The translations under genes were made by a program, and so were the position numbers. Source: Thermomicrobium sp. (GTDB lineage Bacteria; Chloroflexota; Chloroflexia; Thermomicrobiales; Thermomicrobiaceae). Taken from it: a stretch of 64,000 bases of DNA. This document shows, piece after piece, positions 2,774 to 64,000 of this stretch. Below the pieces are notes generated by a model. The model saw nothing but the letters and a program-made list of their open reading frames with translations, searched no databases and was not told where the DNA came from. Location of the stretch: positions 62,001 to 126,000 of the forward strand of contig JANXBE010000001.1 of assembly GCA_025060175.1 (NCBI GenBank). The letters are read 5' to 3'. How positions within the stretch are numbered: the stretch's first letter is position 1; each line of letters starts with the position of its first letter.

Positions 2774-4990
2774 ATGGGGATCGGTGCACGGATGACAGTC
2801 ACACCCGAACTGCTGCGTGAAGTCGCACTGACTGCGGAAGAGTACCGCCGAGCGGTCGAGTTGCTCGGTCGGGAGCCGAATCGCTTGGAACTCGGGATGA
2901 TCGGTGCGCTGTGGAGCGAGCACTGCGGGTACAAGCACTCGCGCCCGCTGTTACGTCGGTTTCCGACGAGCGGTCCGCACGTTGTCCAGGGACCAGGTGA
3001 GAATGCTGGTGCTGTGGAACTCGGTGACGGCTTGGTCGTCGTCCTGAAGATCGAGTCGCACAACCATCCCAGCGCGGTGGAGCCGTTCCAAGGGGCGGCT
3101 ACCGGTGTGGGCGGGATCGTGCGCGACATCTTCGCGATGGGAGCGCGGCCGATCGCCCTGGTGGATTCGCTTCGGTTCGGACCGCTGGAGGAGGCGCGAC
3201 AGCAATATCTCTTCCATGGGGTCGTCGGGGGCATCGGTTGGTACGGCAACTGCCTCGGGATTCCGACCGTCGCGGGAGACGTCTTTTTCATGTCGGAGTA
3301 TCGGCAGAATCCGCTCGTGAATGCGATGTGCGTCGGGATCGCCCAGCGCGAGGCGCTCGTTCGTGCGAGAGCCTCGGGCGTGGGAAACCTCGTGGTGCTG
3401 GTTGGGGCCGATACCGGCCGCGACGGCATCCACGGTGCGACATTCGCGTCAGTGGAGGATCCAGAACGATCGCATCGTGGAGTAGTGCAAGTGGGGAACC
3501 CGTTCCTGGAGAAGTTATTGCTGGAAGCGTGTCTCGAGGTACTGGGCACCGGGGTGGTCGTGGCGATGCAAGACCTCGGGGCCGCCGGCTTGACGAGCGC
3601 GAGTGCTGAGATCGCTGCGCGTGGTGGCACTGGGATCGAGCTGGAGGTCACAGCGGTGCCGCGACGCGAAGCGGGGATGACGCCCTACGAGGTGATGCTC
3701 TCGGAGAGCCAAGAGCGGATGCTGCTCGTCGTTCGTCCGGAGGGACTGGAACGGGTGCTCGCGATCTTTCACCGCTGGGATCTCCATGCGGTCGTCGTGG
3801 GACGCGTGACGGACGATGGCTGCTTGCGAGTGCTCGAGGACGGGAAGACGGTCGCCGAACTCCCGGTGCAGCTCCTGACGGACTGGTGTCCGACGTACGT
3901 TCGCGAGGCTCGCGAGGCAGACGAGATCCGCGCTCGGCGCTCGTTCGATCCGAGGAGCTTGCCGGATCTCGAGGCACGCGACGTCGGTGCCGTCTTGGAG
4001 CAGCTGTTGCGTTCACCGAATATCGCGTCCCGCCAACCGATTTACCGAACGTACGATCATACGATCATGACCAATACGGTGCTGGCGCCTGGGCAGGGCG
4101 AAGCAGCGGTGCTGCGCGTGAAAGGGCATCGTTTCGGGATCGCGGTCAAGACTGACTGCAACCCACGCTATTGCTTGCTCGATCCTCGTCTCGGGGCGCA
4201 GCATGCGGTGGCGGAGGCGACGCGGAACGTGAGCTGCGTGGGAGCGGAGCCGCTGGCGATCACCGACTGTTTGAATTTCGGGAATCCGGAACGGCCCGAA
4301 GTCTACTACCAGTTGGTGCAAGCGATCGAGGGCATGGCTGAAGCGTGTGAGGCTCTCGGGGTGCCGGTGGTCAGCGGCAACGTCAGTCTCTACAACGAAA
4401 CAGAGGGACGATCGATCCCACCGACGCCGGTCGTGGGGGTCGTCGGCAGACTGGAAGACGTGCACCGGCGCGTCGGCATGGGTTTTGCCGGGGAAGGCGT
4501 GGTCTTTCTCCTGGGGCCACAGCGAGCGACGCTGGGAGCGAGCGAGTATCTCGCTCACCGCTTCGGCATCGTGGGTGGTACACCGCCTGCCTTGGACTTG
4601 GAACTCGAGCGACGTGTCCAGGTGCTGGTGCGGGATGCGATCCACCGTGGGATCGTGCTTGCGGCCCACGATTGCAGTGAAGGCGGGTTGCTCGTGGCGG
4701 TCGCCGAGAGTTGCATAGTGGGTGGGATCGGCGGGCGGTTCCGGATCGACCCGTTGTTGGAGGCAAACGGTCGGCTCGATGAGACGGTGTTCGGGGAGGC
4801 TGCCTCGCGCGTGCTCGTTCAGGTGCCGTTCGGCGCCGAGGGCACGCTCCTCGCGTTGGCGCACGCCCATGGCGTGCCGATCTACGAGTTCGGCCGTCTC
4901 GGTGGGGAGCGATTGGTCGTGGACGGACTCCTCGATCATCCACTCGGTGCGCTCGCGGAGGCGTGGCGGAGGGGTCTCCGTCGGATGTGA
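2774..4990 (+). CDS. purL: FGAM synthase, PurL large subunit (small-type PurL)
   Basis: ATP-dependent synthetase subunit that converts FGAR to FGAM with ammonia from PurQ. About 738 residues, the size of the small PurL that needs PurS and PurQ. SEHCGYKHS lies near residue 48, and the HNHPSAVEPFQGAATG ATP/Mg-binding stretch is at about residues 96-112. There are two AIRS-type halves; the second includes TDCLNFGNPE and SGNVSLYNE. An ATG at 2792 (MTVTPELL) is an equally plausible start. The next gene, purF, starts about 68 bases after its stop. Confidence 0.95.
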   Translation: MGIGARMTVTPELLREVALTAEEYRRAVELLGREPNRLELGMIGALWSEHCGYKHSRPLLRRFPTSGPHVVQGPGENAGAVELGDGLVVVLKIESHNHPSAVEPFQGAATGVGGIVRDIFAMGARPIALVDSLRFGPLEEARQQYLFHGVVGGIGWYGNCLGIPTVAGDVFFMSEYRQNPLVNAMCVGIAQREALVRARASGVGNLVVLVGADTGRDGIHGATFASVEDPERSHRGVVQVGNPFLEKLLLEACLEVLGTGVVVAMQDLGAAGLTSASAEIAARGGTGIELEVTAVPRREAGMTPYEVMLSESQERMLLVVRPEGLERVLAIFHRWDLHAVVVGRVTDDGCLRVLEDGKTVAELPVQLLTDWCPTYVREAREADEIRARRSFDPRSLPDLEARDVGAVLEQLLRSPNIASRQPIYRTYDHTIMTNTVLAPGQGEAAVLRVKGHRFGIAVKTDCNPRYCLLDPRLGAQHAVAEATRNVSCVGAEPLAITDCLNFGNPERPEVYYQLVQAIEGMAEACEALGVPVVSGNVSLYNETEGRSIPPTPVVGVVGRLEDVHRRVGMGFAGEGVVFLLGPQRATLGASEYLAHRFGIVGGTPPALDLELERRVQVLVRDAIHRGIVLAAHDCSEGGLLVAVAESCIVGGIGGRFRIDPLLEANGRLDETVFGEAASRVLVQVPFGAEGTLLALAHAHGVPIYEFGRLGGERLVVDGLLDHPLGALAEAWRRGLRRM

Positions 4991-61134: not shown

Positions 61135-61827
61135 TCACGCTCCGAAGAGTGCTCGGCCGATCCGTACCATAGTGGCACCTTCCTCGACAGCGATCTCGAA
61201 GTCGTTCGACATACCCATGGAGAGCTCCGGCAAGGAACACCCACATTGTTGCTGCAATTCGTCGCGCAAGACGCGTAGTCGGCGGAAGACCTGCCGGATT
61301 TCGTCCGCCGTCGATGTCAGTGGGCCGATCGTCATCAAACCGCGCAATTCCAAGTGCGGCGCTGCCAGCACGGCTCGAACGAGGGCGAGGGCTTCGTCGG
61401 GGCGACACCCGTGTTTCTGCGCTTCCCCGGCGACGTTGACCTGGACAAGCACTGGGAGACGCCGCTCCTCCTGCTCAGCCCGTCGGGCCAGTGCTTCGAC
61501 GAGGCGAAGACGGTCGACTGAATGAATCATGGAGAACAAGCGCACCGCTTGACGAACCTTGTTCGTCTGCAGGTGGCCGATCAGGTGCAGCTCCGCGTCC
61601 GAGGGTAGGGGAGCGGAGACGAATTTGTGCCACGCTTCTTGCACTCGGTTCTCTGCGAATGTCCGAAGTCCGAACTCGTACGCGAGCTGTACTGTCGCGC
61701 GATCGATCCCCTTGGTCACGGCGACGACAGTAACGGAACGCGGATCACGTCCGCCGCGGACTGCAGCACGCGCGATGCGGAGACGGATCGCTTCCAGATT
61801 GGCAGCCAAACGGTCTCGATCGATCAT
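61135..61827 (-). CDS. yggS: YggS-family PLP homeostasis protein
   Basis: Binds and buffers pyridoxal phosphate. 230 residues from ATG 61827, which overlaps the pgeF stop and follows a GGAG five bases upstream. The PLP lysine is in TVVAVTKGI; HLIGHLQTNKV, the HSVDR motif and LSMGMSNDFEIAVEEGATMVRIGRA (in parts) are conserved. Confidence 0.94.
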   Translation of the reverse strand: MIDRDRLAANLEAIRLRIARAAVRGGRDPRSVTVVAVTKGIDRATVQLAYEFGLRTFAENRVQEAWHKFVSAPLPSDAELHLIGHLQTNKVRQAVRLFSMIHSVDRLRLVEALARRAEQEERRLPVLVQVNVAGEAQKHGCRPDEALALVRAVLAAPHLELRGLMTIGPLTSTADEIRQVFRRLRVLRDELQQQCGCSLPELSMGMSNDFEIAVEEGATMVRIGRALFGA

Positions 61828-62621
61828 CGGTACTCCGTCTCGCTCCTTTCCGGGGGCAAGGCGATGACCGCGGCCTGCATCCCAGTACGCGGTCCATCGG
61901 CTCGATACGAAAACCATTCGCGTGGTCGACAGCGGGTACAGCGACCGGCCAGTTCGATGTTGTGCGGCGGGACACCGGCCTCCAGTACCAGCATCCGATT
62001 GGCTTCCCACAGGTCGAAATGCATCCGACCATTCCGGCGCACGATCGCCCGCTCGCCGATCGTCCCGACGGCGTGTCGCCAACGCTCGACGACGTCATCG
62101 CCGACCTCGTAGCAGCAGGGGCCGATCGAGGGGCCGATCGCAACTCGCAGCGCGACTGGTGACGCACCGAACTGGCGCACGAGAAGATCGATCGTTCGGA
62201 GCGCCACGAGGAGCGTCGTTCCGCGCCATCCAGCGTGAACCGCGCCGACCGCCGGGAGATCGGCTGCGTACAAAAGGAGCGGGACACAGTCGGCACACTG
62301 AACGACGACCGGCACGCCCGGTTCTGTCGTCACCAACGCATCGGTGTCCGGTAACGCTGTCTCCGGTACACAGGCACCGCGCCCGCGGTCGGCAGCAGTG
62401 ACCACCGAGATGGCGGCGCCGTGCACCTGACGAGCGAAGACGCTGAACGCTAAGGGCAGCCCGAGGCGACGCCACCAAACGACGCGGTTCCGCCGGGCGA
62501 CGTCCACCCCGACGTTCCAACCGATCGCACCGTCAGCGGGTAGCGACGCGTCGCGGCGCGTTACACCGTGCGGGACACCGGCGCTGTCCAACGACGCGAA
62601 TCGGTATGGCTGGACACGCAC
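61824..62621 (-). CDS. pgeF: Polyphenol oxidoreductase/YfiH-family (PgeF) protein
   Basis: 265 residues from GTG 62621, chosen for a GGAGG nine bases upstream. FARQVHG, ADCVPLLLYAAD, VHAGWRGT and GPCCYEVGDDV carry the His/Cys zinc ligands. The family is described as laccase-like purine nucleoside phosphorylase, and as a peptidoglycan-editing factor. The pgeF-yggS pair is common upstream of sepF/ftsZ-type genes; here an MBL hydrolase follows instead. Confidence 0.9.
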   Translation of the reverse strand: MRVQPYRFASLDSAGVPHGVTRRDASLPADGAIGWNVGVDVARRNRVVWWRRLGLPLAFSVFARQVHGAAISVVTAADRGRGACVPETALPDTDALVTTEPGVPVVVQCADCVPLLLYAADLPAVGAVHAGWRGTTLLVALRTIDLLVRQFGASPVALRVAIGPSIGPCCYEVGDDVVERWRHAVGTIGERAIVRRNGRMHFDLWEANRMLVLEAGVPPHNIELAGRCTRCRPREWFSYRADGPRTGMQAAVIALPPERSETEYR

Positions 62622-63680
62622 AGCCACTGTCCTCCGACGAGGTTCGTCCCAGCACGCTCGTCGCTGTCCGCTCGCTGAGCGGACGTCCGTCACCGGATGT
62701 CCGCCCCGTTTCCGGCGCGTCGCTCATACGATGGCGAACGAGCGAAGATCGCCGTGCCGGCACACCGGTGCGCCCCGATCGTCGGGCAGCCTCCGCACGC
62801 AGGACCGACCTCCCCAGTCGCCTGCGGCGATGACGCTGATCCGTCGGCATGGCCATCGGCGGCACGATCCTGCGCTCGTGCGCCGGGAACGCCCGCCTGC
62901 TGTCCCTGCCTCGAACGGCTCGGGCCAGTCGCTCGGCCACGGGACGTCGGCCGCACGCGCCATCGCAGCACGGGTTCGCTTCGTGCTGGTTCGCAGGCGA
63001 CAGAACATCAGTCGGCTGACTCCATCGGGTCGGCGTCGTGCGCCGGTACTACGGAACGCGCGTCGCGGCTGGTGGGTCACGCCGCGCGCTGGCGAACCGA
63101 TCCGTACCTAGTCGAGGGCGTCTCGGCCCTGGCATCCCACCGTCACGCGCGGTCGAGACGACCGTCGCCAGTCTAGGGTATCGCCGTCGGAACGGACAAC
63201 CGCCGGGACCCGCGGCACCGCCGCCACGCGGGTTCAGGAACTGGCGCGTTGCCCATCGGGGTCGCAGGTTGGGTAGCGATGTGTCGCCCCGCTGGATTCG
63301 CTCTTCGATGGAGGCAGAAGGGAGGCGTGGGCAGTGCTCTGCGCCGGCGTCCACCGCTATGCTGCGCATAAGGACTGTTATGCGCAGGACTTCAAGAGAC
63401 CGGATCGCGCCGCTCCGCTCCTGCCAGATCGCGCCGGAGCGACTCGTCGCGACGCGCTCGCTCTCGTCGTGGCGTCCTGCACTCGGGCAGCGCACTGCGC
63501 GCAAGCGTCCGATCGGGCGCCGGAAGGTATCGGAGGACAACCCGCTGATGGCTGCTCGGTGGCGCCGACGAGCTGCCTCGGATGGAGGCTGCGAACAGCG
63601 TGCGGCGGACCATGCTGATCGGACCGCTGGGATCCCGCCTCGGCCGCCCGCGCGTCCTCTTCCAGCGTGGCTTGCCCTGC
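62622..63680. other. 1-kb stretch without a recognisable gene
   Basis: Open frames exist on both strands but are Arg/Pro/Ser/Ala-rich, lack ribosome sites and show no motif. It lies upstream of pgeF and downstream of nfi (both minus). Features seen: a short GGACGTCC palindrome near 62680 and the dif-like dyad at 63361-63388. I found no tRNA, RNase P, tmRNA or riboswitch core. Confidence 0.5.
63361..63388. other. dif-like XerC/D-type recombination site (candidate)
   Basis: Architecture is 11-6-11: left arm GCTGCGCATAA (63361-63371), centre GGACTG (63372-63377), right arm TTATGCGCAGG (63378-63388). Ten bases of each arm are exact inverted repeats. The left arm matches the E. coli XerC-binding arm GGTGCGCATAA at 10 of 11 positions, and TTATG begins the right arm as in the XerD arm. 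It sits in a non-coding stretch. A transcription-factor operator is the alternative. Confidence 0.5.
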
Positions 63681-64000
63681 TTACGACGTCGCGTCGAGGT
63701 GGGCGACCGCTTCCTCCGCATAGCGGTGCGCCCAGCGTATCGGCTCGGGCAGTCGGTAGCGACTCAGTCGCACGACCCAAAGGATCGCCTCGGCCAGCGT
63801 GATGCGGTGTCCGACCGAGACAAAGATGGGTTTGGCCCCCACGCGCGTGCGCACCGCAGCTCCGACCACCTCGCTATCGGCGGTGAGCGGTGTCCACGCA
63901 CCGCGCACGTGCTCGGGTTCGCGATAGCGCCCGAAGAGGCGGGACTTGGCAACCCCGATCGTGGGCACGTCCAAGAGGATCCCGACATGGCTGGCCAGGC
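63681..64000 (-). CDS. nfi: Endonuclease V, C-terminal part (5' end outside window)
   Basis: Cuts DNA or RNA near deaminated bases (inosine). About 106 residues are visible and the frame runs off the right edge. HVGILLDVPTIGVAKSRLFGRY split over its N-terminal portion, EVVGAAVRTRVGAKPIFVSVGHRITL and the closing RLPEPIRWAHRYAEE match the family. Upstream catalytic residues are beyond the window. Confidence 0.92.
   Translation of the reverse strand, partial: LASHVGILLDVPTIGVAKSRLFGRYREPEHVRGAWTPLTADSEVVGAAVRTRVGAKPIFVSVGHRITLAEAILWVVRLSRYRLPEPIRWAHRYAEEAVAHLDATS

Follow-up and report, generated by a model that had tools for sequence, protein, structure and literature searches.

A probable dif site with nearly identical arms on the main chromosome of a Thermomicrobium-like bacterium

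The dif site, a well-known kind of site, is where bacteria resolve joined chromosomes once replication ends, and elements that hijack it are likewise well known. The site of E. coli is GGTGCGCATAATGTATATTATGTTAAAT as printed in PMC3025954. Vibrio cholerae has two sites, dif1 and dif2, with replicon-specific overlap regions and a shared recombinase set (PMC5357621). The key motif in the dif-binding region of these recombinases is RQX in XerD and XRX in XerC (PMC2958812). Elsewhere, the dif site of Legionella XerL has perfect 10-bp arms, while the Coxiella recombinase is plasmid-borne; Coxiella is, to the knowledge of the authors of that work, the first case in which a recombinase from a secondary replicon is needed for resolving the main chromosome (PMC9765430). 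A large published survey predicted dif in only three Chloroflexi, all of them Dehalococcoides, and among the papers that we searched there was no dif report for Thermomicrobia.

The window that we analysed is a stretch of 64,000 nucleotides (G000:C11:62001-126000) from a Thermomicrobium assembly of 711 kb that is 54% complete. At 63361-63388 it holds a 28-mer, GCTGCGCATAA-GGACTG-TTATGCGCAGG, with arms that are complementary at 10 of 11 positions. We read this element, with a probability of roughly 0.9, as the dif site that serves the main chromosome in a Thermomicrobium-like bacterium. It has the make-up of a bacterial dif: 28 bp, two 11-bp arms, a 6-bp centre and inner ATAA/TTAT ends, all of which it shares, together with a position at the terminus, with the sites of the XerCD systems of E. 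coli and V. cholerae. Unlike in the classical sites, both arms here are nearly identical and resemble the XerC arm. The features of the locus are as follows:

63361..63388, no strand: probable dif site, 11-6-11 (sequence; conservation in the family; skew maximum of its own contig)
63361..63371, no strand: predicted left recombinase-binding arm GCTGCGCATAA (10 of 11 bases shared with the XerC arm of E. coli)
63372..63377, no strand: predicted 6-bp centre (overlap region) GGACTG (by analogy; centre kept at both ends of the element in genome G006)
63378..63388, no strand: predicted right recombinase-binding arm TTATGCGCAGG (10/11 complementary to the left arm)
63681..64000, minus strand: nfi (endonuclease V), C-terminal part in the window (PF04493, 1.5e-33; synteny with the chromosomal dif holds in the family)
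61824..62693, minus strand: pgeF/yfiH-like gene for a laccase-like YfiH/PgeF protein (PF02578, 1.2e-61; start codon uncertain)

The element, with its 11-6-11 layout over 28 bp and ten paired arm bases, was found exactly as the original prediction had described it, and the 10/11 match claimed between its left arm and the E. coli XerC arm is correct against the sequence of PMC3025954, one base being different. The genes pgeF and nfi, both on the minus strand, flank it across a gap of about 1 kb, with the stop codon of nfi 292 bp upstream of the site. This gap had been called non-coding, and the long frames across it matched no Pfam family, unlike both neighbouring genes. At the site itself an Rfam search gave no match, and neither a promoter nor a T-tailed hairpin was found. 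A search of the gap for an integrase remnant was unconvincing, the best tblastn match (E 0.002) falling over the end of pgeF, away from the site. Symmetry was dropped as evidence for dif: the window holds four 11-6-11 palindromes with at least 10/11 symmetry, against 0-3 in simulations and about two expected. What is remarkable is the specific word and not its symmetry, the exact word TGCGCATAA-N6-TTATGCGCA having an expectation of about 2e-8 per 64 kb and 2e-7 per 711-kb genome.

The assignment to dif, and with it the placing of the element at a replication terminus, is supported by a single copy, a skew maximum and, in the relatives, mostly one copy per replicon. In its own, 54%-complete genome the site is the sole match, even with three mismatches allowed. 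Its contig of 204 kb has a positive GC skew up to about 110-120 kb, a skew near zero up to 150 kb and a negative one thereafter; the cumulative G-minus-C maximum falls at 122,813, 2.5 kb from the site at contig position 125,361.

Across the order, the pattern TRCGNAYAA-N6-TTRTNCGYA was recovered in 42 of 61 genomes, with 1-3 copies per genome and mostly two per genome within the family Thermomicrobiaceae, while the reversed control pattern matched in none of the 61. The copy linked to nfi and pgeF is syntenic over much of the family. In genomes with resolved replicons, both have a version of the site, and in the well-assembled relatives the expectation of one copy per replicon was mostly borne out, mostly at a skew switch. 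For instance, another Thermomicrobium (G001) shows a switch at the copy on both of its replicons (C1 195,791 and C6 839,491). On the T. roseum megaplasmid (NC_011961) a single good copy lies at 524,176, with a skew that is plus at 503,801-523,800 and minus from 549,601 on. In genome G007, which we take to be Sphaerobacter thermophilus DSM 20745 with two chromosomes, the chromosome 1 copy (G007:C1) is at 1,305,099, in the interval of 1.25-1.37 Mb over which the sampled skew turns from positive to negative. In all, four replicons of relatives have the site at a switch; replicon 2 of Sphaerobacter, on which the copy is away from any clean switch, is the exception. The sampled skew of that replicon (G007:C2) is positive, weakly negative at about 375-646 kb and positive again, with a dif-like site at 544 kb in the negative stretch, a pattern that suggests a rearranged replicon. 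Extra copies occur in G003 and in Sphaerobacter; the third Sphaerobacter copy (C1 1,627,740; L125:9739-12957) is about 1.5 kb from a large serine recombinase and is probably on a mobile element.

These relatives also bear on whether the element might be a palindromic operator or a transcription terminator between pgeF and nfi. Its palindromic form and its place 292 bp downstream of the nfi stop codon would suit such a role. However, the site lacks a T-run as well as a promoter, each genome has no more than 1-3 copies, and the megaplasmid copy stands among unrelated transporter genes; the site is not confined, as an operator would be, to the side of one regulator. By copy number, position and neighbours we reject this reading, which we regard as wholly improbable.

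The position of the predicted crossover is illuminated by genome G006, where the chromosomal site (G006:C4) is split by an element of 10,556 bp (L122:3438-14021). The left junction reads TATACGCATAAGGGTTC and then passes into foreign DNA, while the right junction is the full site TATGCGCATAAGGGTTCTTATGCGTATT; the element is bounded by the complete site on the right and by a half-site, consisting of one arm and the centre, on the left. The 1.5-kb flanks on both sides are 89-90% identical to those of the undivided site in the sister species G003, in which the element sequence itself has no match. Since the 6-bp centre is kept at both ends, exchange would have taken place within or at the edge of the centre, as predicted for a tyrosine-recombinase site. 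Elements inserted in dif are natural evidence of the crossover position, and the G006 insertion indirectly supports the view, drawn from the junction sequences, that the 28-mer is such a crossover site and a natural recombination target.

The G006 element encodes its own phage-type integrase (L122:12749-13960), the gene for which stops just short of the site, along with a PrimPol primase, SWIM and SprT-like proteins and other small genes. Its integrase sets it apart from the IMEX class, which encodes none and needs the host Xer proteins. In G004, G006, G008, G013 and G015, members of a single integrase family have their ends about 100-140 bp away from the sites. In four of these genomes (G004, G008, G013 and G015; L119, L128, L200 and L202), the contigs end inside presumed elements beside dif-like sites. 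The recurrent integrase family and the exact insertion in G006 might be taken to mean that the sequence is chiefly the attB of an integrative element family and does not serve dimer resolution. Yet in most genomes, the window included, the site is without an adjoining integrase, and a dif role explains why it lies at the skew switch and recurs on each replicon. Accordingly, we consider a primary role as attB very unlikely.

We also considered the proteins that might act on the probable dif site. The XerD-like protein, recombinase a (267 bits against a cut-off of 329.6), is encoded in the genome of the window at G000:C16:38990 and occurs in one copy in 40 of 41 genomes, the exception being G005, which is 62% complete; its scores against TIGR02225 range from 225 to 306 bits, all under 329.6. 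Family f4 and G030 apart, nearly every genome of the order has the XerC-like recombinase b, which was seen in relatives only and is far weaker elsewhere in the class; both proteins remain below their NCBIfam equivalog cut-offs. With the key motif placed by us before the HxxRH block, recombinase a has RQG at all 30 loci and recombinase b has PRT (24) or ART (1) at the 25 of 30 loci where the pattern matched. By scores and motif, a may be classified as XerD-like and b as XerC-like. A further recombinase, c, is more divergent and was set aside. FtsK with a gamma domain was found in 22 of 22 near-complete relatives but not in the 54%-complete genome of the window; the incompleteness of that assembly accounts for our not seeing FtsK, b or a second site there.

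The original prediction had held that two XerC-like arms would suit a single symmetric recombinase or a plasmid/replicon resolution site. Given the near-perfect arm symmetry, a dif worked by a or b alone on both identical arms, in the manner of archaeal XerA or Legionella XerL, deserves consideration. The perfect 10-bp arms of the XerL site (PMC9765430) are a precedent, and the dif-XerL system of Legionella and Coxiella resembles the present one in its highly symmetric arms, in being brought to light by mobile-element integration and, in Coxiella, in its plasmid-borne recombinase. The archaeal dif-XerA system likewise has a near-palindromic site of 28 bp in the terminus region, and b scores about equally well to archaeal XerA and to XerC. 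An orthologue of b in HOG57, moreover, has a palindrome 26 bp upstream. Against this, the class with a lone Xer recombinase (XerA, XerS, XerH and XerL) differs from our relatives, in which two Xer-type recombinases, with XerD-type and XerC-type motifs, are conserved nearly order-wide, and the XerD-like protein is also found in HOG57. Unlike in dif-XerL, the arm matches the bacterial XerC arm, and unlike in archaeal dif-XerA there is an FtsK with a gamma domain. Furthermore, asymmetry prevails among the sites of neighbouring genera and families, one arm usually having ACAA and the other ATAA. The suggestion of a single symmetric recombinase thus finds no support, and we hold it to be unlikely. 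As a and b are conserved in the relatives with these motifs, a two-recombinase system is the more likely arrangement, the allotment of each protein to a particular arm being presumptive.

Some palindromes near recombinase genes may be recorded here. At L006:6078-7141 of HOG57, a Chloroflexi MAG, a perfect palindrome lies 26 bp upstream of the start of the b-type gene; it is the sole copy in that genome and is not at a terminus-type skew switch. Within Thermomicrobiales, no dif-like palindrome was found upstream of b. The b promoters (L213, L215, L218, L222, L228, L230 and L231) have a GTACGTAC-type palindrome, possibly an operator.

The arms and centres were compared over 26 sites from 13 genomes. 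Neither arm varies at positions 5, 6 and 8-11, and the mean arm symmetry is 9.6/11. Among the sites listed for two genera (g5, g6) and two families (f2, f3), 30 of 41 have one ACAA and one ATAA arm, so that near-perfect symmetry is a trait of Thermomicrobium, Sphaerobacter and close genera in an order with a usually asymmetric site. Within one genome, the two sites are closer in their arms, with 3.0 differences versus 4.2 under shuffled pairing (p 0.002), a statistic that is weakened by the inclusion of related genomes. The centres of the two sites in one genome, on the other hand, differ in at least 2 of 6 bases in the 13 genomes, with a mean within-genome difference of 3.46 against a shuffled mean of 2.64. 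We did not accept this shuffle result as proof of centre avoidance, since it could arise from kinship among the genomes and a single swap between genera. Such a swap is seemingly visible in the centre types: the nfi-linked site is GGRTTC-like in g1 and GTGCGC-like in g2-g4, and the second replicon has the reverse. The pattern of arms and centres fits, by analogy with V. cholerae dif1/dif2, a shared recombinase set acting on replicon-specific overlap regions, with the kinship of the genomes weakening the statistics. Common to both are one site per replicon with differing centres, a XerD-like protein and the FtsK gamma domain.

A two-recombinase dif system would then operate as follows. The XerD-type recombinase a and its XerC-like partner b would bind one arm each, FtsK would pair two sites at the division septum and activate strand exchange across the 6-bp centre, and this exchange would turn a chromosome dimer back into two monomers. 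With unlike centres on the two replicons, the chromosome and the megaplasmid would be less able to recombine with each other. Five points count against the dif reading: the near-identical arms, a KOPS polarity that was not recovered, the Sphaerobacter replicon 2 site lying off a clean switch, the sub-cut-off scores of both recombinases and the 54% completeness of the genome of the window, in which a second site, FtsK and b are unseen. With regard to the second, our KOPS search gave skewed octamers that follow only the GC skew, with no polarity beyond it at the site, so that KOPS was not recovered here, unlike in dif/XerCD.

The locations of the recombinase genes set the system further apart from dif/XerCD, as the gene for the partner, a divergent XerC/XerA-like protein, is on the second replicon wherever genomes are resolved. 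In G001, G003, G006, G007 and G009, b shares a contig with the second site, whereas a is on a different one; b was also found on the megaplasmid of T. roseum. We tentatively raise the possibility, to which we give somewhat less than even odds, that dimer resolution is split: the chromosome would encode the sole XerD, while the XerC-like partner that it needs would come only from the megaplasmid or second chromosome, and with near-identical arms shared genome-wide only the differing 6-bp centres would decide which sites recombine. If so, each replicon would depend on the other for dimer resolution. Cultured species would allow tests of whether the second-replicon recombinase is needed to resolve the main chromosome and whether centre identity keeps the replicons apart. 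For Thermomicrobiales, the gain is a probable dif site and a terminus marker for two-replicon genomes; specialists may wish to test the second-replicon location of the partner recombinase, the centres specific to each replicon and the elements that sit in dif with an integrase.

Comparable palindromes were seen in two other MAGs. In the Acidobacteria MAG YS2.bin24 (L009:1699-6117), a perfect palindromic site (3269-3296) separates the first and second of three tandem tyrosine-recombinase genes, a locus that resembles a recombinase-in-trio element. A Myxococcales MAG (L011:2274-2406) has two dif-shaped palindromes 105 bp apart, with different arms.
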